This document shows positions 32,713 through 45,167 of a stretch of DNA of 56,108 nt, piece by piece. A program made the position numbers and the translations under genes. Source of the DNA: Alphaproteobacteria bacterium (GTDB taxonomy: Bacteria > Pseudomonadota > Alphaproteobacteria > UBA828); assembly GCA_022826665.1 (NCBI GenBank), contig JAJDUK010000060.1:1-56108 (forward strand), given 5' to 3'. Position 1 is the first letter of the stretch, and each line of letters begins with the position of its first letter. The notes under the pieces are model-generated. The model was not told the origin of the DNA. It was given only the letters and a program-made list of their open reading frames with translations, and did no database searches.

Positions 32713-33582
32713 TCAGAACCGTTGGTCTTGGTCCAGCTTCCCGACCCAGTGCCTGTAGTTGTGCACCGAAAAGCGCTGATACTCGACCACGTTGTAGAGG
32801 TAGGTGCCCTCTTCGATCCGTGCCTCCGCCTGTTCGTAGCCCTCCTGGGTCACGGGCACGAACTTGATGCGGTCGCCCGGCTGGAACAGCACGATGTCCC
32901 CACCGAAGACGTCGAAGCGCTTCTCCGTGTCCCAGATCGGCACCGGTGTGCGGCCGAGTAGCTGATAGCCCCCCGGCGTGTTGACCGGGTAGATCGCGCT
33001 CGCCGACCCGCCCATGCCCACCGTCCCTTGCGGTGTCCAGGTGCGGGGCGGGTTGTACTTGGGCACGGTGATCATCGCCCGAGGGTCGAGCGGCTGGAGG
33101 AAGGGCAGCCCCGGCCAGAAGCCGAGGGAGGCCACCCAGTACTCCGAGCTCGAATGGACGCGGACGAGCTGGTCGCGGTCGGCGAGGCCGTTGAGCCGCG
33201 CCACCATGTCCGGGTCGTACTCCTTGGGTGTGATCTTCTCGCTGTAGTCCTCGATGCAGTCCCTGGTCCACGGATCGAGGTACATGGTCTCGAACAGGAA
33301 GAGCCGGCTGTCGAGCTCGATATCGTCGGTGGAGCCCAAGCTCGCGATCAGCGCCTTCAGCTCCTTCACCACGTCGTCGTAGGAGATCTCGCGCGGCTCG
33401 TAGTGAACCAGCATCGAGGCGAAGCAGGGCGCGGTCTCGACGATGCCCTTGGTCTTGTCGGCGACGATGCGCGCCGCTAGCCCCTGGGCGACGAAGTTCA
33501 GCTCCAGGTTCATCTCATTGCCGAACTCGATCAGCACGTAACGGTCGCCGCCGGGCAGGAACTTTGGCTCGTCGTAGATCAT
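32713..33582 (-). CDS. PxpB/KipI-type carboxyltransferase domain protein (subunit 1 half)
   Basis: A 289-residue protein of the allophanate-hydrolase-subunit-1 / 5-oxoprolinase-subunit-B family. The conserved core is ASLGFWPGLPFL, then GTVGMGGSASAIYP and NTPGGYQLLGRTP (about residues 150-215), with a C-terminal beta segment. It is longer than typical PxpB (about 220-240), with extra sequence around TMYLDPWTRDCIEDY recalling the urea-carboxylase carboxyltransferase region. Normally a second half (PxpC/KipA) is next door; none is seen here. It lies 24 bp downstream of the biotin carboxylase gene, so a biotin-linked carboxylation or ATP-dependent ring-opening role is plausible. Substrate unknown. 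Confidence 0.8.
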   Translation of the reverse strand: MIYDEPKFLPGGDRYVLIEFGNEMNLELNFVAQGLAARIVADKTKGIVETAPCFASMLVHYEPREISYDDVVKELKALIASLGSTDDIELDSRLFLFETMYLDPWTRDCIEDYSEKITPKEYDPDMVARLNGLADRDQLVRVHSSSEYWVASLGFWPGLPFLQPLDPRAMITVPKYNPPRTWTPQGTVGMGGSASAIYPVNTPGGYQLLGRTPVPIWDTEKRFDVFGGDIVLFQPGDRIKFVPVTQEGYEQAEARIEEGTYLYNVVEYQRFSVHNYRHWVGKLDQDQRF

Positions 33583-33606
33583 GGCGCGGCTCTCTCAGGC
33601 GGGCGC

Positions 33607-34968
33607 TCAGGCGCCCATCAAATCCGACCGATGCTCGTCCACGAAGCCGGTGTGGGTGTTCCCGGCGCGGAAGGCATCATGGTCGATAACTTTGCGCAGA
33701 AAGTCGATGTTGGTGACGATACCCTCTATACGGAATTCGCCGAGCGCCGTCAGCATCCTGTCGATGGCGGCGCTGCGGTCGTTGCCGTGGGCGACGAGCT
33801 TGGCGATCATGGGGTCGTAGAAGGGCGTGATCCGGTCGCCTTGCGCCACCCCGGTATCCAGGCGGATGCCTGCGCCTGTGGGCGGCGGCGCGAAGCGCTC
33901 CAGCAGGCCCGGCGAGGGCAGGAAATTCTTGTCCGGGTTCTCGGCGTAGATGCGGCACTCGATGGCGTGGCCGTCGGGCCCGTCCGCCGGCGCGGCGAGC
34001 CCCGACAGGTCCTCGCCCCGCGCGAGGCGGAGCTGAAGGCCCACCAGGTCGAGCCCCGTGATCATTTCCGTCGCCGGGTGCTCCACCTGGATGCGCGTGT
34101 TCATTTCAAGGAAGTAGAACTCGCCGTCCGGCGCCAGGATGAACTCGACCGTGCCGGCGCCGCGGTAGTGCTCCCGCGCCACCAGGGCGAGCGCCGCGTC
34201 CGCCATGCGCGCTCTCAGCGCGGGATCGACCGCAGGCGAGGGCGCCTCCTCGACGATCTTCTGGAAGCGCCGCTGCACCGAGCACTCGCGTTCCATCAGG
34301 TGGAAGCCGCGTCCGTCGCCGTGCCCGAACACCTGAATCTCGATATGGCGCGGGCGTTGCACCAGCCGCTCCAGGTAAACAGTGCCGTCGCCGAACGCGC
34401 GCTCCGCCATGGTCTGCGTGGCGGTGACGACGTCCGCGAGCTTGGCCGGCTCCTCCACCTGCCGCATCCCGATACCACCACCCCCGGCGGACGCCTTCAC
34501 CAGCAACGGGAAGCCCACGGCCTGGGCGGCGTCGTCGAGGCCGGAGGGATCGTTGGCCGTGAGCCGGGCGCTACCGGGGACGATGGGGAGCCCCGCTTCG
34601 CGGGCGATGGTGCGGGCGCGCTCCTTGTCGCCCATGGCGGCGATGCTCTCCGCCGTGGGCCCCACCCAGACAAGGCCGGCATCCTCCACCGCCTGCGCGA
34701 AGGCGGGGTTCTCGGCAAGAAAACCGTAGCCCGGATGGATCGCATCGGCGCCGCTCTCGCAGGCCGCCGCGACGATCTTGTCGGCGACGAGGTAGCTCTC
34801 CTTCGCCGCCGGCGGCCCGATGGGAAGCGCCTCGTCGGCCTCGGCCACGTGGCGGGCGTCGGCGTCGGCCTCCGAATAGACCGCGACCGTCGCGATGCCG
34901 AGCGACCGCGCGCTTCGCATGATCCGGCAGGCGATCTCGCCCCGGTTCGCAATCAGGAGCTTTTGCAT
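33607..34968 (-). CDS. Biotin carboxylase (AccC-like)
   Basis: A 453-residue ATP-grasp enzyme that carboxylates biotin on a carrier protein. The N-terminal LLIANRGEIACRIMRSARSLG, the glycine-rich ATP loop KASAGGGGIGMR, the Mg/ATP motif FLEMNTRIQVEHPATE and the C-terminal biotin-carboxylase domain (IECRIYAENPDKNFLPSPG) are all intact. No biotin-carrier domain is attached, and no BCCP gene is in the window. It is the first gene of the minus-strand BC-CT-AKR(-DUF6064) set, divergent from the acetone-carboxylase-like operon. The setting suggests a dedicated rather than housekeeping role. Confidence 0.88.
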   Translation of the reverse strand: MQKLLIANRGEIACRIMRSARSLGIATVAVYSEADADARHVAEADEALPIGPPAAKESYLVADKIVAAACESGADAIHPGYGFLAENPAFAQAVEDAGLVWVGPTAESIAAMGDKERARTIAREAGLPIVPGSARLTANDPSGLDDAAQAVGFPLLVKASAGGGGIGMRQVEEPAKLADVVTATQTMAERAFGDGTVYLERLVQRPRHIEIQVFGHGDGRGFHLMERECSVQRRFQKIVEEAPSPAVDPALRARMADAALALVAREHYRGAGTVEFILAPDGEFYFLEMNTRIQVEHPATEMITGLDLVGLQLRLARGEDLSGLAAPADGPDGHAIECRIYAENPDKNFLPSPGLLERFAPPPTGAGIRLDTGVAQGDRITPFYDPMIAKLVAHGNDRSAAIDRMLTALGEFRIEGIVTNIDFLRKVIDHDAFRAGNTHTGFVDEHRSDLMGA

Positions 34969-35134
34969 GGGCACCGGGCTCGTGGGCGCTGCGCGGCACG
35001 GCTTGCGGCCGCGCTCGGCAACCGGGCGAGAGGCTACCCGCCCCCTCCGGGTGCCGCAAGCCGAGGCCGGAATTTGTGCCCCTACGACCGGGCGGCAATG
35101 TGCGGCATAGTGTCGCCCGGCCTCCGCAACGGGG

Positions 35135-37300
35135 ATGTACGCGATGCTGGAAAAAGCGCTGATCCCGCAGATTCTCGCCATCGACGCGGGCGGGACGATG
35201 ACGGACACCTTCCTGATCGATCAGGACGGCAACTTCGTCGTCGGCAAGGCGCAGACCACGCCGCACGATGAATCGATCGGCTTCATCCAGTCGGCGAAGG
35301 ACGCGCTGAACTACTGGGACCTGGGGCTGGACGCAAGCTTCCCCCACCTCAAGACCGGCATCTATTCCGGCACCGCCATGCTCAATCGCCTGCTGGAGCG
35401 CAAGGGGCGCGAGGTCGGCGTGATCGTGAGCGGGGGCATGGAGGACTATCTCAGGACCGAGCGCGCCATCCAGACCTATCTCGGCTATCCGTTCTCGGAC
35501 CGCCTGCACGTCATCACGCACCACCACAACGAGCCGCTGGTGCCGCGCGAGCGCATCCTGGGTGTGCGCGGGCGTATCGACCTCTTCGGCAGGGAGATCA
35601 TCCCGCTCTACGAAGGCGACGTGCGCGACGCCGTGCACCGGCTGGTCGACCACGACGTCGCGTCGATCGTCGTCTGCCTGCTGTTCTCCTACAAGAACAA
35701 GGACCATGAGCGGCGGGTGCGCGAGATCGGCCAAGAGGTCATGGCCGAGCGCGGGGTGGCCGAGAAGCCCATCTACCTGTCGAGCGAGCTTTACCCCACG
35801 CGCCAGGATTTTCCCCGCCTCAACTCCACCATCATGGAGGCCTACGCGGCGGAGCCCTCGCGCGAGACGCTGCAGGTGGTCCAGGAGGTCTGCCGGCAGG
35901 CGGGCGGCCGGTTCGAGCTCCGGATCATGGCGAGCCACGGCGGTACGATCTCGATCAACGCGCGGGAGCTTGCGCGGACCATGATCAGCGGGCCCATCGG
36001 CGGGGTCGTGGGAAGCAAGTTCCTGAGCGAGCGGATCGACGTGCCCAACATCGCCTGCACCGATATCGGCGGCACCTCGTTCGATATCGCGCTCATCACG
36101 GACGGCGAGTTCTCTACAAAGCACGCGCCCGACATCGGCCGCATTCTGCTCAACATGCCGATGGTGCGGATCGATTCCGTAGGCTCGGGCACCGGCTCCT
36201 ACGTCCGCGTCAACCCGATCACCAACCGCATCGAGATCGGGCCGGACAGTGCCGGTGCCATGATCGGCGTCTCCTGGCCGGAGGGCGGGGTCGAGACCGT
36301 GACCATCACCGATTGCAACATCGTGCTGGGCTACCTCAATCCCGACTACTTTTTGGGGGGTGACATCACGCTGAGCCGGGAACGCGCCATTGACGCCGTG
36401 CGCGCGCAGATCGCAGACCCGCTCGGCATCGACGTGTACCAAGCTGCCGCCGGCGTGCTGGAGCTGTTCGAGGATCAGCTGAAGAACAGCCTGCTCGGCC
36501 TGATCCTCGGCAAGGGCTACACGCCCGAGAGCTACACGCTGCTCTGCTACGGCGGCGGCGGGCCGCTGCATGTGGCCGGCTACAGCCAGGGCCTCGCCTT
36601 CGACGACATCCTCGTGCCGGCCTGGGCGCCCGGCTTCTCGGCATTCGGCTGCGCCTGCGGCGAATACGCCTACCGCTACGACAAGACCCTGGACATGGCG
36701 CTGCTCCCCGGCGACGGCGCCGATAAGCGGCGCGCGGTGGCTGAGGCAATCATCGCCGCCTGGGACGAGCTGAAGGAGCAGGTCAACGCAGAGTTCAAGA
36801 AGAGCGGCGTGCGTCCGGAAGCCGTCAGCTACCGGCCGGCGGCCCGGATGCTCTACTATGGCCAGTTGAACGATCTCGAAGTCCCGGTGGACGACGGTTA
36901 CGGATCGAACCTGGAAAAGATGCTGGACGGGCTCTACGACGGCTTCGAGGCGGAGTACGGCAAGATGTATGGCCTCGCTGCCCGCACGCCGCAGTTCGGA
37001 TACATGGTGACGGCGGTGGTGATGACCGGGTCCACGCCCGTGGAGAAGCCTGAATTGCCAAACGAGGCGGAGGAGGGGCCGGCGCCACCGACTGCCGCGC
37101 TCAAGGCGGGCCGCAACATCTATGCGGACGGCCAGTGGGTGCCGGCGCAGATCCTCGATCTGCAGCGGCTCAGGCCCGGCAACGTCATAGAAGGGCCGGC
37201 CATCGTCGAATCGCCGGCGTCGACCATGCTGGTGCCGGCGGGCCGGACGGCACGGCTCGACCGGCACAGCATCTTTCACCTGACAACCGACGCGGCGTAG
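35135..37300 (+). CDS. Hydantoinase A / acetone carboxylase beta-like subunit
   Basis: A 721-residue ATP-dependent subunit of the hydantoinase/oxoprolinase family. The two actin-like ATPase phosphate motifs are visible: DAGGTMTDTFLIDQDG (about 17-32) and DIGGTSFDIALI (about 310). In acetone carboxylase this subunit phosphorylates bicarbonate and acetone. Length (about 717 in known AcxA) and the accompanying alpha and gamma genes point to an acetone/acetophenone-carboxylase-type complex more than a hydantoinase. ATG 35144 is an alternative start. It is divergent from the biotin carboxylase with a 166-bp shared region. The substrate ketone or lactam is not known. Confidence 0.85.
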   Translation: MYAMLEKALIPQILAIDAGGTMTDTFLIDQDGNFVVGKAQTTPHDESIGFIQSAKDALNYWDLGLDASFPHLKTGIYSGTAMLNRLLERKGREVGVIVSGGMEDYLRTERAIQTYLGYPFSDRLHVITHHHNEPLVPRERILGVRGRIDLFGREIIPLYEGDVRDAVHRLVDHDVASIVVCLLFSYKNKDHERRVREIGQEVMAERGVAEKPIYLSSELYPTRQDFPRLNSTIMEAYAAEPSRETLQVVQEVCRQAGGRFELRIMASHGGTISINARELARTMISGPIGGVVGSKFLSERIDVPNIACTDIGGTSFDIALITDGEFSTKHAPDIGRILLNMPMVRIDSVGSGTGSYVRVNPITNRIEIGPDSAGAMIGVSWPEGGVETVTITDCNIVLGYLNPDYFLGGDITLSRERAIDAVRAQIADPLGIDVYQAAAGVLELFEDQLKNSLLGLILGKGYTPESYTLLCYGGGGPLHVAGYSQGLAFDDILVPAWAPGFSAFGCACGEYAYRYDKTLDMALLPGDGADKRRAVAEAIIAAWDELKEQVNAEFKKSGVRPEAVSYRPAARMLYYGQLNDLEVPVDDGYGSNLEKMLDGLYDGFEAEYGKMYGLAARTPQFGYMVTAVVMTGSTPVEKPELPNEAEEGPAPPTAALKAGRNIYADGQWVPAQILDLQRLRPGNVIEGPAIVESPASTMLVPAGRTARLDRHSIFHLTTDAA

Positions 37301-37335
37301 GCCGCAGGCCGGTCGGAAGAGCAGCGGAGGCTGAA

Positions 37336-39576
37336 GTGAGCAACGTCGCACTGGAGCATGACTACGGGATCGGTTGGGGCGGTGCCTCGCTCGCCGGGAT
37401 GCTGGAAGAGAGCGAACGGATCTTCTCGGAGACCGGCCACTACGGGGGCCTCGACGAGCTCCCGCTCAAGGCTACCGAGCCCATCCGCTACGAGAAGATG
37501 TTCTCGCGTCTGCGCGGTGGCCTGGTGGGCGCGCGCGAGACGGCGATGAACATCTCGGCGAGCCCGATCGTGCGCGAAGTCGGCGAGCTCTGCTTCGCCC
37601 TCTACACGCCGGAAGGCGATGCCATCACCCTCAGCACCGGGATCATGGCGCACGTGCACACCATGTCCATGGCGATCAAGCACATGATCCGCTCGGACTA
37701 CGAGACCAATCCCGGGATCGCGCCTGGCGACATCTTCGTCAACAACGACCCCCAACTTGGCGGCGTCCACAACGCCGACGTCATGAATTTCCTGCCCCTC
37801 TTCCACGAGGGCGAGATCGTGGGCTGGGCCGCCGGCGTGGTGCACGAGCTGGACGTGGGCGCCCCGCAGCCGGCCAGCATGCCCATCGGCACCGTAAGCC
37901 GCTACGAGGACGGGCTGATTCTGTCGTGCATGAAGGTGGGGTCCAACGACACGCTCAACCGCGACTACGAGAACCGCATCGAGACTGCGGTGCGGATGCC
38001 GTTCTACTGGGTGCTCGACGAGAAGTGCCGCATCGCCGGCTGTCAGATCATCCGGGCGACGGTGGAGCGGCTCATCGCGGAAGAAGGCATCGACACCTAC
38101 AAGCTATTCATGCGCGAGGTGATCGAGGACGCGCGACGCGCCTTCAAGCGCAATCTCACGCAGATGACTGTGCCGGGCACCTACCGCGTGCCCTCCTTCA
38201 TGGATGTGCCCCATGAGGAGGACAAGGGGCTGATGCCGGACTACGCCGCGGTCAATTCGATGATGAACTGCCCGCTCTCGCTCACCATCGGGCGGGACGC
38301 CTCGTTCCACGTCGATCTCGACGGCGCCAACAAGTGGGGCTACCACTCGTTCAACTGCACGCCGTCCGGACTGCAGGGCGGGCTCTGGGTCGTGCTCTCG
38401 CAGACGCTCGTGCCCAACGACAAGGTCAACGACGGCGCCTATCTCGCGACCTCGTTCAACACGCCCTACGGCACCTGGTCCAATCCCGACAACAGGAGCG
38501 TCTCCAACACGCTCTCCTGGATCTTCCTGATCCCCTGCTTCACGGGGCTGGTTCATGCGCTGAGCCGCGCCTTCACCGCGCGCGGCTACCTGGAAGAGGT
38601 ACTGGCCGCCTATCCCTTCACCGGCAACATCACGCAAGGCGGCGGCATAAACCACCACGGCCAGGATGCCGGTTGGTCCAATTTCGAGCATTCGAGCTGC
38701 GGCATCTCCGCCCGCTGGGGCTACGACGGCGAGGTCTCGGGCGCGGCGATGTGGAATCCGGAAGGCGACATGGGCGATGTCGAGGCCTGGGAGCTGACCG
38801 AGCCGCTGCTCTATTTCGGCCGCCGGATCCGCCCCAACACGGGCGGGCCGGGCAAGCAGCGCGGCGGCTCGGGCTGGGAATGCGTGCGCATGCTCTACGG
38901 CACCGAGCGGCAGATCCTCTTCCACTGCAACAGCGGCCATGTCTTCCAGACCTCGGGCCTCTACGGCGGCTATCCGGGCTCCAGCGGCTACCGCCACATG
39001 ATCACCAACACCGACATGAAGGAGAGGATCGCCCAGGGCCTGCCCTACCCGGTCGAGGACAGGGATACAGAGGACAGCCAGATCGTGGCGAACGTGGAGG
39101 CCGATCACCTGATCGACCGCCGCTGCCATCACTTCCCGGTATCCCAGAGCGAGTACGACCTCTACCTGAGCGTGCTCAACGGCGGTCACGGCCTGGGCGA
39201 CCCGCTCGACCGCGATCCCGAGGCCGTCGTCGCCGATCTCAACTCGGGCGACGTGCTGCCGCGCTTCGCGCCGACGACCTACGGCGTTGTCGCCGAGCAA
39301 GATGCCGACGGGCACTGGGTTCTGGACCAGAGCGCGACCGATGCGCTACGCGCCGACATGCGCAAGCAGCGCCTCGAAGACAGCGTGCCGGTCGAGGAGT
39401 GGATGGAGGGCCAGCGCGGCCGCGCGGCCGATCTCGACTTCATCGAGCCGGTCGCCAAGGCCTATCGCGAGAGCATCGCGCTCTCCGAGAACTGGGCGGC
39501 GCTCTACAAGGACTTCTGGGGCCTGCCCGACGAGTGGTCTCCGCCCAACGGCGATGCCTCGGGCCGCGATCGTTAG
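37336..39576 (+). CDS. Hydantoinase B / acetone carboxylase alpha-like catalytic subunit
   Basis: A 746-residue protein of the HyuB family. In acetone carboxylase the alpha subunit binds Mn2+ through His150, Asp153 and His175. Here the same spacing is kept as His145, Asp148 (VHNADVMNF) and His170 (GVVHELDVG), so the metal site is intact. Further family stretches include NNDPQLGGVHNADV and GGPGKQRGGSGWE. The GTG start is set by GGAGG five bases upstream. It is 35 bp after the HyuA-like gene and 11 bp before the gamma gene, clearly one operon. The likely reaction is ATP-dependent carboxylation of a carbonyl substrate. Confidence 0.87.
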   Translation: MSNVALEHDYGIGWGGASLAGMLEESERIFSETGHYGGLDELPLKATEPIRYEKMFSRLRGGLVGARETAMNISASPIVREVGELCFALYTPEGDAITLSTGIMAHVHTMSMAIKHMIRSDYETNPGIAPGDIFVNNDPQLGGVHNADVMNFLPLFHEGEIVGWAAGVVHELDVGAPQPASMPIGTVSRYEDGLILSCMKVGSNDTLNRDYENRIETAVRMPFYWVLDEKCRIAGCQIIRATVERLIAEEGIDTYKLFMREVIEDARRAFKRNLTQMTVPGTYRVPSFMDVPHEEDKGLMPDYAAVNSMMNCPLSLTIGRDASFHVDLDGANKWGYHSFNCTPSGLQGGLWVVLSQTLVPNDKVNDGAYLATSFNTPYGTWSNPDNRSVSNTLSWIFLIPCFTGLVHALSRAFTARGYLEEVLAAYPFTGNITQGGGINHHGQDAGWSNFEHSSCGISARWGYDGEVSGAAMWNPEGDMGDVEAWELTEPLLYFGRRIRPNTGGPGKQRGGSGWECVRMLYGTERQILFHCNSGHVFQTSGLYGGYPGSSGYRHMITNTDMKERIAQGLPYPVEDRDTEDSQIVANVEADHLIDRRCHHFPVSQSEYDLYLSVLNGGHGLGDPLDRDPEAVVADLNSGDVLPRFAPTTYGVVAEQDADGHWVLDQSATDALRADMRKQRLEDSVPVEEWMEGQRGRAADLDFIEPVAKAYRESIALSENWAALYKDFWGLPDEWSPPNGDASGRDR

Positions 39577-39587
39577 GGTGCAATGCC

Positions 39588-40091
39588 ATGACCGTCTACG
39601 ACAAGGCCACGATCGAGGAGCTCTACCGCGGCACGCTGCCCTGGCCGCAGCTCAAGCAGATGATGAGCGCGTTCAAGGACGTGGAGCGCTTCGACACCTT
39701 CCTCGCTGTCCTCCAGGAGCAAGTGCCCTGGGACGACCAGGTGCTTCTGCCCCTCGGCCCCAAGCTCTTCATCGTGCTCAAGGACGACGGGTCCATCGTC
39801 ACCAAGAGCATGAGCGGCCACGAGTTCGGCGACTACCGGGAGAACTGGAAGCTCAAGGCGCGCATCGCCGTGCGGGATACCGACGAGAAGATGCAGGAGA
39901 TCTATCCCAGGTGGATGCACGCCGACCCAGCGTGGATGGAGCTCCGCGAGTACTACGACCCGCTGGACGGCTCATTGCTGGAGGTGGAGGCGGTGCCGCC
40001 GGGCTATCCCATCGTGCACAGCTTCGAGCCCTACCTCGAAGGCTTCTACACGGAGTGGCTCGGCCGGGAGTTCCCGCCCAAGCGAGCCTGA
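39588..40091 (+). CDS. Acetone carboxylase gamma-like subunit lacking the zinc cysteines
   Basis: A 167-residue protein that aligns along its length with acetone carboxylase gamma (LPWPQLKQMMSAFKD, VLLPLGPKLFIV, GHEFGDYRENWKL, LEVEAVPPGYPI, FYTEWLG). Known gamma subunits bind Zn through a CxCGH pair and a CPxCG pair. Here these positions are SMSGH (Ser74, Ser76) and DPLDG (Asp124, Asp127), so all four cysteines are gone although surrounding residues are well kept. That argues against pseudogenisation and for a zinc-free or differently metallated variant. It is the last gene of the three-gene operon. Confidence 0.85.
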   Translation: MTVYDKATIEELYRGTLPWPQLKQMMSAFKDVERFDTFLAVLQEQVPWDDQVLLPLGPKLFIVLKDDGSIVTKSMSGHEFGDYRENWKLKARIAVRDTDEKMQEIYPRWMHADPAWMELREYYDPLDGSLLEVEAVPPGYPIVHSFEPYLEGFYTEWLGREFPPKRA

Positions 40092-40127: not shown

Positions 40128-42206
40128 TTAGGTCGCACGCTCGCGCAGGGTCAGCACGGCGCCCAGCACGACGATGCCGAAGATAATGTCGCGCCAGGCG
40201 AAGTGAAGCTCCGAGCCGGAGACCAGCGTGCCCACCGCCGTCAGCAGCAGCGCGCCGCCGAAAATGCCGAGGTAGTGCCCACGCCCGCCGATGGCGAGCG
40301 TGCCGCCCACCAGCACCACGGCAATCGCCGGCAGCAGGAAGCGCTGGCCCATGTTGAGGAAGGAGACGGTGGAGAAGCCCGTCATCAGCACACCGGCGAG
40401 CGCCGAGCAGAAACCGCTCAGCACGTAGACGCCGAGCACCGTCCAGTCGACCCGAACGCCGGAGAGTCGCGCCACCCGCGCGCTGTTGCCGACCGCGAAG
40501 ACGCGCCGGCCGAATGTGGTGCGATGCAGCACGACGTAGGCCACGCCGGCGAAGCCGATAAGGAACCACGCGGCGGGCGCAAGCCCGGCCAGCCGCTCGG
40601 TGAAGAACCACACCAGCGCCGGCGGCGAGCGTCCGGTGGGAATGCCGCCGGTAAAGAGCAGGCCCGCGCCCTGCATGATGCCGTTGGTGGCCAGCGTGAC
40701 CACGATGGCCGGCATTCCGAACAGCACCACGCCGATGCCGTTGAAGAGGCCGACGCCGATGCCGATGGCGAGCACCAGCGGCACCGCCCAGTAGGCTGGC
40801 CCGTCCATCCCGTTGCAGAGCGCGGCCAGCACGACGCCGGTGAAGGCAAGCGTGTGCGGCACCGAGAGGTCAAGCCCGCCGGTTAACACCACCGCGCCTT
40901 GCCCAAGGCCCAGCACGGCGAGGAAGAGCCCGAGCGTGAGCAGCGAGTTGAGGTAGTGGACGCTCACGCTCTCGCCGCCGATGACTGCGACCACGAGGAT
41001 GTAGACCACGACCAGCAGGGTCCAGGCCGGCACCATCAGGCGCAGCACGTCCCAGTTCTTGGTGGTCCACTGCCAGAGCTGCGGTCCGCTCAGTTCGTCG
41101 CTCGCCCGCGGGGTCCAGCTCGTGGCGAGCTTGCCTGTATTGGCCCGCGCGCCGCCGTGGAAGGAGGGCAGGCTCCTGTGCCTGAGCCCCGATAGCTTGA
41201 GGCCGGTCACCCGCCAGTATTCGGCGAGCGACGTGTCGCGGCCGATGGAGGCGCCGATCACCGCCAGCAGCAGGATCACCGCCTCGGTGATCGGCATGAC
41301 GTGGGGCGACCAGTTGAGCACGATCAGCACGTTCGAGATCAGCATCAGCGTGAACGCCGCGAACACCGTGCCGAGGCAGCCGCCCTCGCCGCCGCCGATC
41401 CGGGTGCCGCCCAGGATGGTCGCGGCGAAGATGAGGAGCAGCATGCCGCTGCCCACCAGCGGGTCGCCGGAGCTGGTCTGGGCGCTGAGGAAGACCCCGC
41501 CCGCGCCGTAGAAGGTGCCGGCCAGCGTGTAGCCGAGGAACTTGGTGCGCGCGACGTTGATGCCGTTGGCAAAGGCGGCGTCCTCGTTGCTGCCGACGGC
41601 GTAGAGCGCGGTGCCAAAGCGAGAGCGCTTGATGAGCGCCCAAAGCCCCAGCGCTAGTAGGATGACGAGCAGCGCGGCGGGGAAGCCGTCGGGGATCAGG
41701 TCGCCGGTGAAGACCATCGAGAGGCCGTAGGGGATGTAGCCGCCCGGGTCCGGCATCAGCAGCAGGTTGAGGCCGAGGATGATGAACATGACCGCCAGCG
41801 TCACCACCACCGGCTGCAGCCGCATGTAAGCGATGAAGAAGCCGTTGATGGCGCCGACCGAGGCCCCGATGCCGAGGCCTGCGAAGCACATCAGGACCTG
41901 GCTCCAGAGGGAATCGGTGGTGTGCAGCGCCATGATCACGTTGACCAGCGAGAGCACGGCGCCGCAGGAGAGGTCGAACCCGCCGATCAGGAACACCACC
42001 GTCTGGCCCATGGCGGCGAAGGCAAGTGGCCCGGTGTTGGACGAGAGGAAGTTGATTTCGAAGTAGCTGATCGGGCCCGGCGAGATCACGTCCAGGCAGA
42101 CGAAGATGCCGATGAAGGCCGTGACCGCGACCAGCAGGCGCCGGTTGCGGGCCAGCCCCTGCTGCCAGGAGAGCCGCGGCATCCGCGAGAGCGGGACGTC
42201 GCTCAA
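40128..42206 (-). CDS. Fused double permease of a sugar/nucleoside-type ABC importer (two RbsC-like domains)
   Basis: About 692 residues holding two complete BPD_transp_2 (RbsC-like) permease domains in one chain. The first covers about residues 20-330 (with GGFDLSCGAVLSLVN and NGINVARTKFLGY). A hydrophilic linker of some 60 residues follows. The second runs to the end (with GGLDLSVPHTLAFTGVV and RLSGVRVDWTVLGVYVLSG). Such permeases are usually separate genes that homo- or heterodimerise. A TTG start overlaps the ATPase stop and has GGGAG upstream; the first ATG is at 42182. The substrate is unknown. It is the last gene of the binding protein-ATPase-permease operon. Confidence 0.87.
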   Translation of the reverse strand: MSDVPLSRMPRLSWQQGLARNRRLLVAVTAFIGIFVCLDVISPGPISYFEINFLSSNTGPLAFAAMGQTVVFLIGGFDLSCGAVLSLVNVIMALHTTDSLWSQVLMCFAGLGIGASVGAINGFFIAYMRLQPVVVTLAVMFIILGLNLLLMPDPGGYIPYGLSMVFTGDLIPDGFPAALLVILLALGLWALIKRSRFGTALYAVGSNEDAAFANGINVARTKFLGYTLAGTFYGAGGVFLSAQTSSGDPLVGSGMLLLIFAATILGGTRIGGGEGGCLGTVFAAFTLMLISNVLIVLNWSPHVMPITEAVILLLAVIGASIGRDTSLAEYWRVTGLKLSGLRHRSLPSFHGGARANTGKLATSWTPRASDELSGPQLWQWTTKNWDVLRLMVPAWTLLVVVYILVVAVIGGESVSVHYLNSLLTLGLFLAVLGLGQGAVVLTGGLDLSVPHTLAFTGVVLAALCNGMDGPAYWAVPLVLAIGIGVGLFNGIGVVLFGMPAIVVTLATNGIMQGAGLLFTGGIPTGRSPPALVWFFTERLAGLAPAAWFLIGFAGVAYVVLHRTTFGRRVFAVGNSARVARLSGVRVDWTVLGVYVLSGFCSALAGVLMTGFSTVSFLNMGQRFLLPAIAVVLVGGTLAIGGRGHYLGIFGGALLLTAVGTLVSGSELHFAWRDIIFGIVVLGAVLTLRERAT

Positions 42207-43777
42207 GGGGCCGCTCCCGCCTCTGCCGCCGGCTGCGCCCCTTGCGTGGCCTCGGCACTCTCCTCCGAACCCTCGGCGCCCAGCGCGTAGCCCATGATCG
42301 CCTGCTCGGTGATCTCCTCGCCGATCAGCTCCTTGACCATGCGCCCGCGGTACATGACCAGCACCCGGTCGCAGATGTTCACGAGCTCCGGTATCTCGGT
42401 GGTGTAGTAGAGGATGGCGGCGCCAGCCTTGGCGAGCGCGCGGATCAGCACGTAGATCTCGTGCTTGGTGCCGATATCGACGCCCCGCGTCGGGTCGAAG
42501 GTGAGCAGCACCTGGCTCTGCGCCAGCAGCCACTTGGCGATGGCGATTTTCTGCTGGTTGCCGCCGGAAAAGGATGAGACGGTCTTGTAGAGCGCACGCG
42601 GGTGCACCTGCAGGTCGTTCAGCACCTCGTCCACGGCAGCGGCTTCGGCCCTGCGGTCGATCCAGCCCGCCGCAGCGAAGCGGTCGATGATCGGGATCGA
42701 GGCATTGGCCCCGCCCGTGAGCCTGAGGAACAGCGCTTCGGTCTTGCGATCCTCCGGCACCATGCTGATGCCGGCCCGCACCGCATCGGCGGGCGAAGCG
42801 AGCGTGAGTGCCCGGCCGCCGAGGGCGATGGTGCCGCTATCCACGCCGCGCTCGCCGAAAAGCGCCTCGAACAGCTCGCGCTGGCCCATGCCCTGGAGCG
42901 CGCCGATGCCGAGCACCTCGCCGGGCCAGAGCTCGAACGAGAGATCGTCCAGCGTGCCCCCGATGGTGAGTCCGTCGCCGGCGAAGGCCGGTGTTGTCGC
43001 GTCGGCCTGGCGGTAGTTCTCGCGCTCCGGATAGATCGCGCCGAGGGAGCGGCCGATGACGAGGCTGACCACCTCGTCGTCGCTCACCTCGTCGATCCCG
43101 TAGGAGCCCACGTGCCTGCCGTTGCGGAGCACGGTGAGGCTCTGGCAGAAGCGGCGCACCTCGGCCATGCGGTGCGAGATGAAGACGATCGTCACGCCCT
43201 CTGCGTTGAGGCTGTCGATGAGGTCCCCAAGCCAGTCCACGTCAGAGGCCGATAACGTGGACGTCGGCTCGTCGAGCAGCAGCACCCGGGGCTCGCGCGC
43301 GACCGCTTTCGCGATCTCGATCTTCTGGCGGGTGGAGAGCGCGAGGTCGCTCACCAGCGCGTTGGGGTCCACGTCGTCCAGGCCGAGCCGGGCGAAGTGC
43401 TGGACGACGGCGCGCTTGCTGCCGCGCCGGTCGATCTGGCCTGCTACCAGCGGCTCGTAGGGCAGCAGCATGTTCTGGATAACGGTCAGATCGTCGATCA
43501 GGGTCATTTCCTGAAACGCCGTCTGAATGCCGAGCCGGTGCGCGCGGGACGGGCGCCCGATGGTCACGTCGTCGCCGAAGACGTGGATGTCGCCGGTATC
43601 CTCGCGGATCAGACCGGCCAGAATCTTGACGAGGGTGGACTTGCCGGCGCCGTTCTCGCCGATCAACGCGCGGATCTCGCCCTGCGGAATGGAGAAGGTG
43701 ACGTCGTCGAGGGCGACGGTCGCGTCAAACCGTTTGGAGAGGCCGTCGACCGCGATGGCGGGCGCCGCATCGTTCAT
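42203..43777 (-). CDS. RbsA/MglA-type double ABC ATPase
   Basis: A 524-residue cytosolic ATPase with two ABC domains, as in ribose/galactose/nucleoside importers. N-domain: Walker A GENGAGKST (40-48), signature-like LALSTRQKIEIAKA, Walker B LLLDEPTSTLS and H-loop FISHRM. C-domain: the usual degenerate Walker A (GIGALQGMGQREL), signature SSFSGGNQQK, and FDPTRGVDIGTKHEIY, in which the Walker B Asp-Glu is Phe-Asp; this substitution seems typical of a subset of these proteins. It precedes the fused permease with a TTGA overlap. The C-terminal alanine/glutamate-rich tail is dispensable-looking. Confidence 0.9.
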   Translation of the reverse strand: MNDAAPAIAVDGLSKRFDATVALDDVTFSIPQGEIRALIGENGAGKSTLVKILAGLIREDTGDIHVFGDDVTIGRPSRAHRLGIQTAFQEMTLIDDLTVIQNMLLPYEPLVAGQIDRRGSKRAVVQHFARLGLDDVDPNALVSDLALSTRQKIEIAKAVAREPRVLLLDEPTSTLSASDVDWLGDLIDSLNAEGVTIVFISHRMAEVRRFCQSLTVLRNGRHVGSYGIDEVSDDEVVSLVIGRSLGAIYPERENYRQADATTPAFAGDGLTIGGTLDDLSFELWPGEVLGIGALQGMGQRELFEALFGERGVDSGTIALGGRALTLASPADAVRAGISMVPEDRKTEALFLRLTGGANASIPIIDRFAAAGWIDRRAEAAAVDEVLNDLQVHPRALYKTVSSFSGGNQQKIAIAKWLLAQSQVLLTFDPTRGVDIGTKHEIYVLIRALAKAGAAILYYTTEIPELVNICDRVLVMYRGRMVKELIGEEITEQAIMGYALGAEGSEESAEATQGAQPAAEAGAAP

Positions 43778-43799
43778 GCGTGCCCGCGCGAAGAAATGT

Positions 43800-43838
43800 G
43801 CGCCGGGGCTCTGCCAGACTTGCGGCCGGCCCCGGCGC
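43800..43838 (-). terminator. Hairpin between binding-protein and ATPase genes (possible attenuator)
   Basis: Perfect 10-bp inverted repeat: 43800-43809 with 43829-43838, 19-nt loop, in the 101-bp gap. On the minus-strand transcript a pyrimidine-rich run (ATTTCTTC) follows. Partial termination or mRNA protection here would give more binding protein than membrane subunits. Confidence 0.55.
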
Positions 43839-43878
43839 AGCAGTCGTCATGGATCATGGCGGACGAGCCGCCGATCCT

Positions 43879-45018
43879 TCAGGTTTCGTCGTCCAGCATC
43901 CCTTCGGTGGCCGCGCGGAAGCCGAGCTCGGGCACCTGGGGCGACCAGAAATCGATGGCATAGTCAGGCGGGACGATGCCGGGCTTGATGGTGTTGCAGC
44001 CCGCCGCGAACTCCTCCGCCGTGCCGTTCTCGCAGAGCTTCACGTTGTCCTGCGTGACCTCGACCCCGGTGTACCACCTGAGATGCGGCACGTCCTCGTT
44101 GCCGTCGAGCACCTCCATGGCGGTCTTGAAGGTGTAGGAAACCGCCCAGAGGCCGGAGCCGATGGACTGGCCCGTCTTGCCGAGCGCGCCTTCGATCCCG
44201 GAATCGACCGGCAGCATCTGCAGCCGGTTGCCGTTGGCCGACTCACCGGCACACGGAATGATCGGATTGTCGGGCCACCAGCCGTCCTCCACCTGCATCT
44301 GGGAGACCGTGTAGCAACCGGTCTGCGCCACGATGCCGTCGATGTCGGCCCAGCTCTTGGTGGCCAGCAGCTCGCGCATCTTGAGGCGGGCTTCGGAGTG
44401 GCTCCACATGCCCACGAGCTCGGCCAGCACGTTGACATCGGGGTGCCGTTCCACGGCCTGCTTGAAGCCCTTGTGGTGGTCCTCGCCGTAGGAGACGCCG
44501 GGCACGCCGGTGATCGCGACGATGTTGCCCTTGCCGCCCATCTGGTCGATCACGTACTGGGTGCGGTAGTCGCCGAGCGCTACGCCGTCGATCTTCACGA
44601 CATAGGCGCAGGGCTCGGTCACGCCGTTGATCACGGCCACGACCACGCCCTTGTTGCACGCGTTCCTGATGACCTTGTTGAGCGCCGTCGGCGAGATCGG
44701 GAAGGCCACGATGGCATCCGCGCCGGCCGCGATCATCGCGTTCATCTGCTGGATCTGCTTCTGCGCGTCGGGGCCCGAGGCCTGAACCCGCAGCTCCACC
44801 CGATCGCGATACTGCGGCGCCTTGGCCATGGCGATGACGGTGTTCTTGGCCTCCGTCTGCCAGGCGTTGCCGACATAGCTCATGCTGTAATAGACGAGGA
44901 ACTTGCCGTCCTCGGTCTTGGCCTCGGCCTTGTCGGCGGTCACGCTGGCGGCGAGTGCTATGCCCGCGCCGGCAGCAATCGCCCAGCGGGCGAGGCGTTT
45001 CGTTGCCCTGATTCTCAC
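43879..45018 (-). CDS. Periplasmic binding protein of the sugar/nucleoside-type ABC importer
   Basis: A 379-residue type I periplasmic binding protein (RbsB/Peripla_BP_4-like). A Sec signal peptide covers about residues 1-33 (LARWAIAAGAGIALAASVTADKAEA). The mature part opens with KFLVYYSMSYVGNAWQTEAKN and has the lobe-hinge patterns IAAGADAIVAFPISPTAL and GNIVAITGVPGVSYG. Start is GTG with GGGAGG upstream. It is the first gene of the importer operon and divergent from the CocE-type hydrolase, with a 149-bp shared region. The ligand is not predictable; sugars, purines and small cyclic compounds are all known for the family. Confidence 0.88.
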   Translation of the reverse strand: MRIRATKRLARWAIAAGAGIALAASVTADKAEAKTEDGKFLVYYSMSYVGNAWQTEAKNTVIAMAKAPQYRDRVELRVQASGPDAQKQIQQMNAMIAAGADAIVAFPISPTALNKVIRNACNKGVVVAVINGVTEPCAYVVKIDGVALGDYRTQYVIDQMGGKGNIVAITGVPGVSYGEDHHKGFKQAVERHPDVNVLAELVGMWSHSEARLKMRELLATKSWADIDGIVAQTGCYTVSQMQVEDGWWPDNPIIPCAGESANGNRLQMLPVDSGIEGALGKTGQSIGSGLWAVSYTFKTAMEVLDGNEDVPHLRWYTGVEVTQDNVKLCENGTAEEFAAGCNTIKPGIVPPDYAIDFWSPQVPELGFRAATEGMLDDET

Positions 45019-45167
45019 CTGTCTCCCTCCCTTGTTCGCTTTGCAAAACACCGGATGATCCTCGTCTTTAGAGTGTGCCGCCCGCAGCCGGGACGAGTCA
45101 ATTGCGGCCCGTTTCGACCGGCAGCCCAAGATGGGCTACGCTCCCGCGCCAGCAGGGAGGGGCGAAA

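Follow-up and report, generated by a model that had tools for sequence, protein, structure and literature searches.

Ser/Ser/Asp/Asp in place of the zinc cysteines of an acetone carboxylase-like gamma subunit, and recurrent loss of this site among ketone carboxylases

In the acetone carboxylase (AC) of Xanthobacter autotrophicus (XaAC; AcxABC, PDB 5svb, 5svc and 5m45), the zinc ligands of the gamma subunit are Cys74, Cys76, Cys124 and Cys127, and no catalytic role is predicted for the zinc (PMC5543143). In acetophenone carboxylase (Apc) the zinc is probably structural, and the gamma cysteines were stated to be highly conserved in both Apc and Acx (PMC5214803). The same source distinguishes AC by its subunits and gene order from hydantoinases, which have no gamma subunit, and from acetophenone carboxylases, which have alpha prime and epsilon subunits. 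A metal-analysed AC, that of Rhodobacter capsulatus, was reported to contain about 1 Zn per (alpha beta gamma)2 (PMC10865871). No earlier report of gamma cysteine loss was found in the literature searched.

The operon and its gamma subunit

The window (the whole stretch of DNA analysed, 56,108 nucleotides from an alphaproteobacterium) carried three same-strand genes (35135-40091, +) in the order beta (HyuA-like), alpha (HyuB-like) and gamma (Table 1). This acxABC-like arrangement matched the AC plan, and gene order and subunit lengths were like those of Xanthobacter AcxABC. Alpha and beta matched their XaAC counterparts with E-values of about 2e-211 and 7e-248 and identities of 45% and about 50%, respectively. 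All four Mn ligands of alpha were present (Glu89, His150, Asp153 and His175 in XaAC numbering; EHDH); three of these had been recognised in an earlier sequence-only reading as a retained triad His145/Asp148/His170, a numbering that is right if alpha starts at GTG 37336. The XaAC structure paper singles out four residues of beta, among them the nucleotide-site and switch residues Ser391, Phe405 and Asn578; in the window beta, Phe405, Met571 and Asn578 were identical and Ser391 was replaced conservatively by Thr (TFMN); alpha had Arg at the position of XaAC Glu85, a residue that touches beta Asn578. ApcABCDE of Aromatoleum (PDB 5l9w) belongs to the same superfamily and shares the zinc-ribbon core of gamma (Z 9.9), but differs in having two HyuA-type subunits, an epsilon subunit and a shorter gamma with CxxC knuckles. 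Neither alpha prime (the second HyuA-type subunit) nor epsilon was present in the three-gene window operon, and the window proteins scored far under the cut-off of the NCBIfam Apc models. The window gamma aligned from residue 4 with AC gamma and from residue 49 with Apc gamma, and thus has the AC-type N-terminal extension of about 50 residues.

Table 1. Coordinates in the window of the acxABC-like genes and of the codons discussed in the text.
Feature	Position	Strand	Evidence
AcxA-like beta subunit, HyuA family, nucleotide site	35135..37300	+	homology searches
AcxB-like alpha subunit, HyuB family, Mn site; start placed at GTG, an earlier start possible	37336..39576	+	homology searches
Alpha codon aligned with Mn ligand Glu89 of XaAC	37585..37587	+	alignment
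Alpha codons aligned with the stretch between and including Mn ligands His150 and Asp153 of XaAC	37768..37779	+	alignment
Alpha codon aligned with Mn ligand His175 of XaAC	37843..37845	+	alignment
AcxC-like gamma subunit without zinc cysteines	39588..40091	+	translation, Pfam and PDB matches, alignment, AF2 model
First former zinc knuckle, Ser74 and Ser76 for Cys74/Cys76	39807..39815	+	alignment, codons
Second former zinc knuckle, Asp124 and Asp127 for Cys124/Cys127	39957..39968	+	alignment, codons

The gamma ORF was intact (ATG start, 167 aa, 11 nt after the alpha stop) and was recognised as Acetone_carb_G (PF08882, E 8.8e-40). It aligned over residues 4-164 with the Xanthobacter AC gamma (PDB 5m45/5svb; E 2e-50, 49% identity), in agreement with the homology along the length claimed in the sequence-only reading, as was the replacement of four of four zinc cysteines: the XaAC ligands aligned with Ser74 (AGC, 39807), Ser76 (AGC, 39813), Asp124 (GAC, 39957) and Asp127 (GAC, 39966), abbreviated here as SSDD. 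The identical four residues were found in the gamma of locus L074 in an independent genome of the same class (G048:C50); this gamma was 75% identical to that of the window. Between these two genes dN was 0.19 and dS was saturated, which indicates purifying selection. A sequencing error is therefore unlikely, because the second genome has the same residues, and decay of the gamma gene is ruled out by the substitution rates. Further SSDD gammas were sought among 60 relatives, in 398 genomes of the phylum and in the orders of the window genome and of G048, and only G048 had one; likewise, a PF08882 census of 385 genomes of the class showed SSDD beyond the window only in G048. Two other gamma-type domains in the window genome (L002, fused to HyuB, and L003) kept CxxC and CPGC, and the acetophenone carboxylase-like gamma adjoining the L074 operon kept CRRC and CPKC; the loss therefore concerns this protein and not the organism's use of zinc.

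Neither flank of the operon was on its strand. Upstream and divergent (32713-35208, -) were a biotin carboxylase (AccC-like) and a CT_C_D gene (PxpB/KipI-like); the longest biotin carboxylase ORF overlapped the beta gene, and its true start is probably internal. Downstream and convergent (40128-45129, -) was a sugar-type ABC transporter (fused permease pair, ATPase and periplasmic binding protein). The sigma-54 regulator seen upstream of several of the acx operons examined was absent next to the window operon. In the L074 locus (G048:C50:4001-19731) the AC-like operon was followed directly by an acetophenone carboxylase-like apcABCD operon; the apcE position was taken by a 287-aa ORF that matched no Pfam or NCBIfam model.

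Recurrence and independence of the cysteine loss

Relatives from public genomes and plasmids were aligned at the four zinc positions. All four cysteines (CCCC) were present in 20 rows, XaAC and 19 further loci, including Ancylobacter, Acidibrevibacterium, Methylorubrum CM4, Paraburkholderia, Cupriavidus and Sinorhizobium/Shinella. Ser/Ala/Cys/Ser (SACS) was found in 25 of 25 aligned Rhodobacterales-type rows; this number is not a frequency, since the loci were retrieved through patterns derived from the window protein. These rows comprised Paracoccus, Rhodobacter CZR27, Cereibacter, Rhodovulum, Roseovarius and Thioclava, together with a few Hyphomicrobiales such as Martelella, Aquamicrobium and Chelatococcus. 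The SACS enzymes resemble that of the window in having lost the zinc site while keeping the Mn ligands, but differ in that one cysteine is left, the loss is a separate one beside the Xanthobacter group, and annotated examples have an upstream sigma-54 regulator. Brevibacterium mcbrellneri had SSDS. Over the three lineages, 10 of the 11 replaced positions were Ser or Asp and the remaining one was Ala; columns co-varying with the cysteines were too few, and too closely tied to lineage, to be informative. One of the SACS gammas (L012) belongs to Paracoccus solventivorans, named as acetone-degrading in a title (Siller et al. 1996) cited in PMC4543880. On this evidence an ordinary acetone carboxylase seems able to work with a gamma that lacks the zinc site, the acx operon being presumably the gene set responsible for acetone degradation in this species.

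Among named relatives, the gamma closest to that of the window (55-58% identity) was encoded in the acxABC-like operon of Sinorhizobium/Shinella (pSymB), which, unlike the window operon, has intact zinc cysteines, Gln for alpha His150 and, downstream, genes for an SDR and for an ABC binding protein of the choline type. The same His150 to Gln change, with Glu89, Asp153 and His175 kept, was observed in the acxABC-like operons L078 (Sinorhizobium meliloti pSymB), L079, L089-L092 and L077, the last from G003, a genome of the same genus as the window.

The independence of the losses was assessed on a maximum-likelihood tree of alpha and beta, leaving gamma out; L074 was placed by alpha only, its own beta being cut at the contig end. 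SACS rows were the sister of the Xanthobacter group (support 100/99), Brevibacterium branched outside both, and the window and L074 lay outside the whole AC clade, as its sister (100/100). The outgroups (Sinorhizobium-type and L096/L097) were CCCC, and the direction of change was therefore loss. This tree requires at least three independent changes. With the constrained groups defined by the trait and not read off the tree, a single clade of all cysteine-less rows was rejected (p-AU 7e-59), as were the groupings of SACS with Brevibacterium (p 0.001) and of the window and L074 with Brevibacterium (p 9e-66). Loss of the structural zinc site is thus recurrent and convergent in ketone carboxylases, contrary to the high conservation of the cysteines stated in PMC5214803. 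The four cysteines are, moreover, a poor defining feature of Acx, because the 25 Rhodobacterales-type loci and Brevibacterium also lack the full set.

Gamma-type zinc-ribbon domains were also observed at the C-terminus of HyuB-like proteins (G000:C36:25607-25900, covering L002 and L075; L043; L050; and G048:C53), in frames of about 770-830 aa, the cysteines being kept in those read (L002 and L043). The HyuB-fused domain of L008 (G006:C16:26668-26922) had a half-degraded motif (CAET ... CPVSG) and may represent yet another independent loss of this site.

Interpretation of the cysteine-less gamma subunit

The AF2 model of the window gamma (mean pLDDT 90; 97 for residues 71-80 and 96 for residues 121-130) superposed on XaAC gamma 5svb_F over 163 residues (Z 19.8, rmsd 2.1). 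The underlying alignment left out the plasmid-collection rows and included zinc-site homologues. Since these homologues guided the prediction, the modelled fold is consistent with a metal-free gamma and is not proof of it. Asp-Pro-x-x-Gly and Ser-x-Ser-Gly are turn-forming motifs. Replacement of zinc-binding by nonzinc forms has precedent in ribosomal proteins, in S4 (PMC3087516) and in zinc-independent paralogues (PMC5912738).

The three genes probably encode a ketone carboxylase that depends on ATP and Mn and forms a sister lineage of the AC clade; its gamma would act as a clamp in which Ser/Asp turns free of metal replace the zinc knuckles. The complex would be of the (alpha beta gamma)2 type and would act on a ketone; beta would activate ketone and bicarbonate with ATP, and the alpha Mn site would join the two activated substrates. 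Gamma would retain the AC gamma fold and still serve as the structural clamp of alpha and beta without zinc, the knuckles CxCG and CPxCG having become the turns SxSG and DPxDG. In the most economical reading, Ser and Asp side-chain oxygens would replace the sulfur-to-amide hydrogen bonds, so that the hairpins stay pinned without a metal. The gamma zinc is probably a dispensable structural staple, because its site was lost at least three separate times, known acetone-eating bacteria included. Some considerations weigh against this explanation. R. capsulatus belongs to Rhodobacterales, the order that typifies the SACS rows, and if its gamma is also SACS, the zinc measured in its enzyme may bind elsewhere. 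The window enzyme is also 45-50% identical to XaAC and placed beside and not inside the AC clade, with alpha Arg for Glu85 and without the sigma-54 regulator.

That the operon encodes an ordinary acetone carboxylase in all respects, its cysteine loss being neutral drift without consequence, seems unlikely. The retained Mn ligands, gene order and most nucleotide-site residues, and the presence of SACS enzymes in an acetone degrader, would fit such an enzyme, but the window lineage lies outside the AC clade (45-50% identity), the neighbouring genes that were scanned included none of an acetone pathway, and the same replacement residues are kept in two genomes under purifying selection.

It is quite improbable that the window/G048 lineage is instead a distinct carboxylase of a ketone other than acetone, with gamma rebuilt around the SSDD site for a function of its own, be it the binding of another metal (Ca, Mg or Mn) or a novel contact that regulates the enzyme or selects its substrate. 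The predicted fold is unchanged, and cysteines were also lost in acetone-degrading Paracoccus (SACS) and in Brevibacterium (SSDS), residue sets that make no metal site. In favour of a changed function, Asp occupies two of the four positions in both the window and L074, the lineage branches deeply and apart from the AC clade, and the acetophenone carboxylase-like operon adjoining that of G048 makes another ketone plausible. The sequence-only reading had proposed such a subfamily with a different gamma function. That the complex forms a lineage of its own is upheld by the tree and by the identities to XaAC, but not the use of cysteine loss as a sign of a different function, because this site has also decayed, in separate events, in enzymes closely related to the AC of known structure and in Brevibacterium; loss of the zinc site is by itself no pointer to a new gamma function. 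The other metal suggested for the Asp positions is disfavoured, since the adjacent His78 is Phe in L074 and SACS offers no plausible metal site, and the two Asp, being both acidic, cannot form a salt bridge with each other; a turn of the Asp-Pro kind is more probable.

An ATP-dependent hydrolase of the hydantoinase/oxoprolinase type carrying a gamma subunit is very hard to credit: alpha and beta do belong to the HyuB/HyuA superfamily and there is a CT_C_D gene (PxpB/KipI type) close by, but the AC matches (E 1e-211 and 7e-248) far exceed those to hydantoinases or caprolactamase (1e-17 and 1e-75), the Mn ligands are the same as in AC, and HyuAB enzymes have two subunits and no gamma (PMC5214803), whereas the window operon has one.

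Meaning for ketone carboxylases

Published work takes the gamma cysteines as a signature conserved among ketone carboxylases and leaves open what the zinc does. The independent losses number at least three, and one of these lies next to the Xanthobacter enzyme of known structure. They amount to a natural experiment, which suggests that the gamma zinc is dispensable for ketone carboxylase chemistry and which supplies putatively zinc-less enzymes for comparison. They are also a warning that these cysteines are unfit for annotating or excluding acetone carboxylases.
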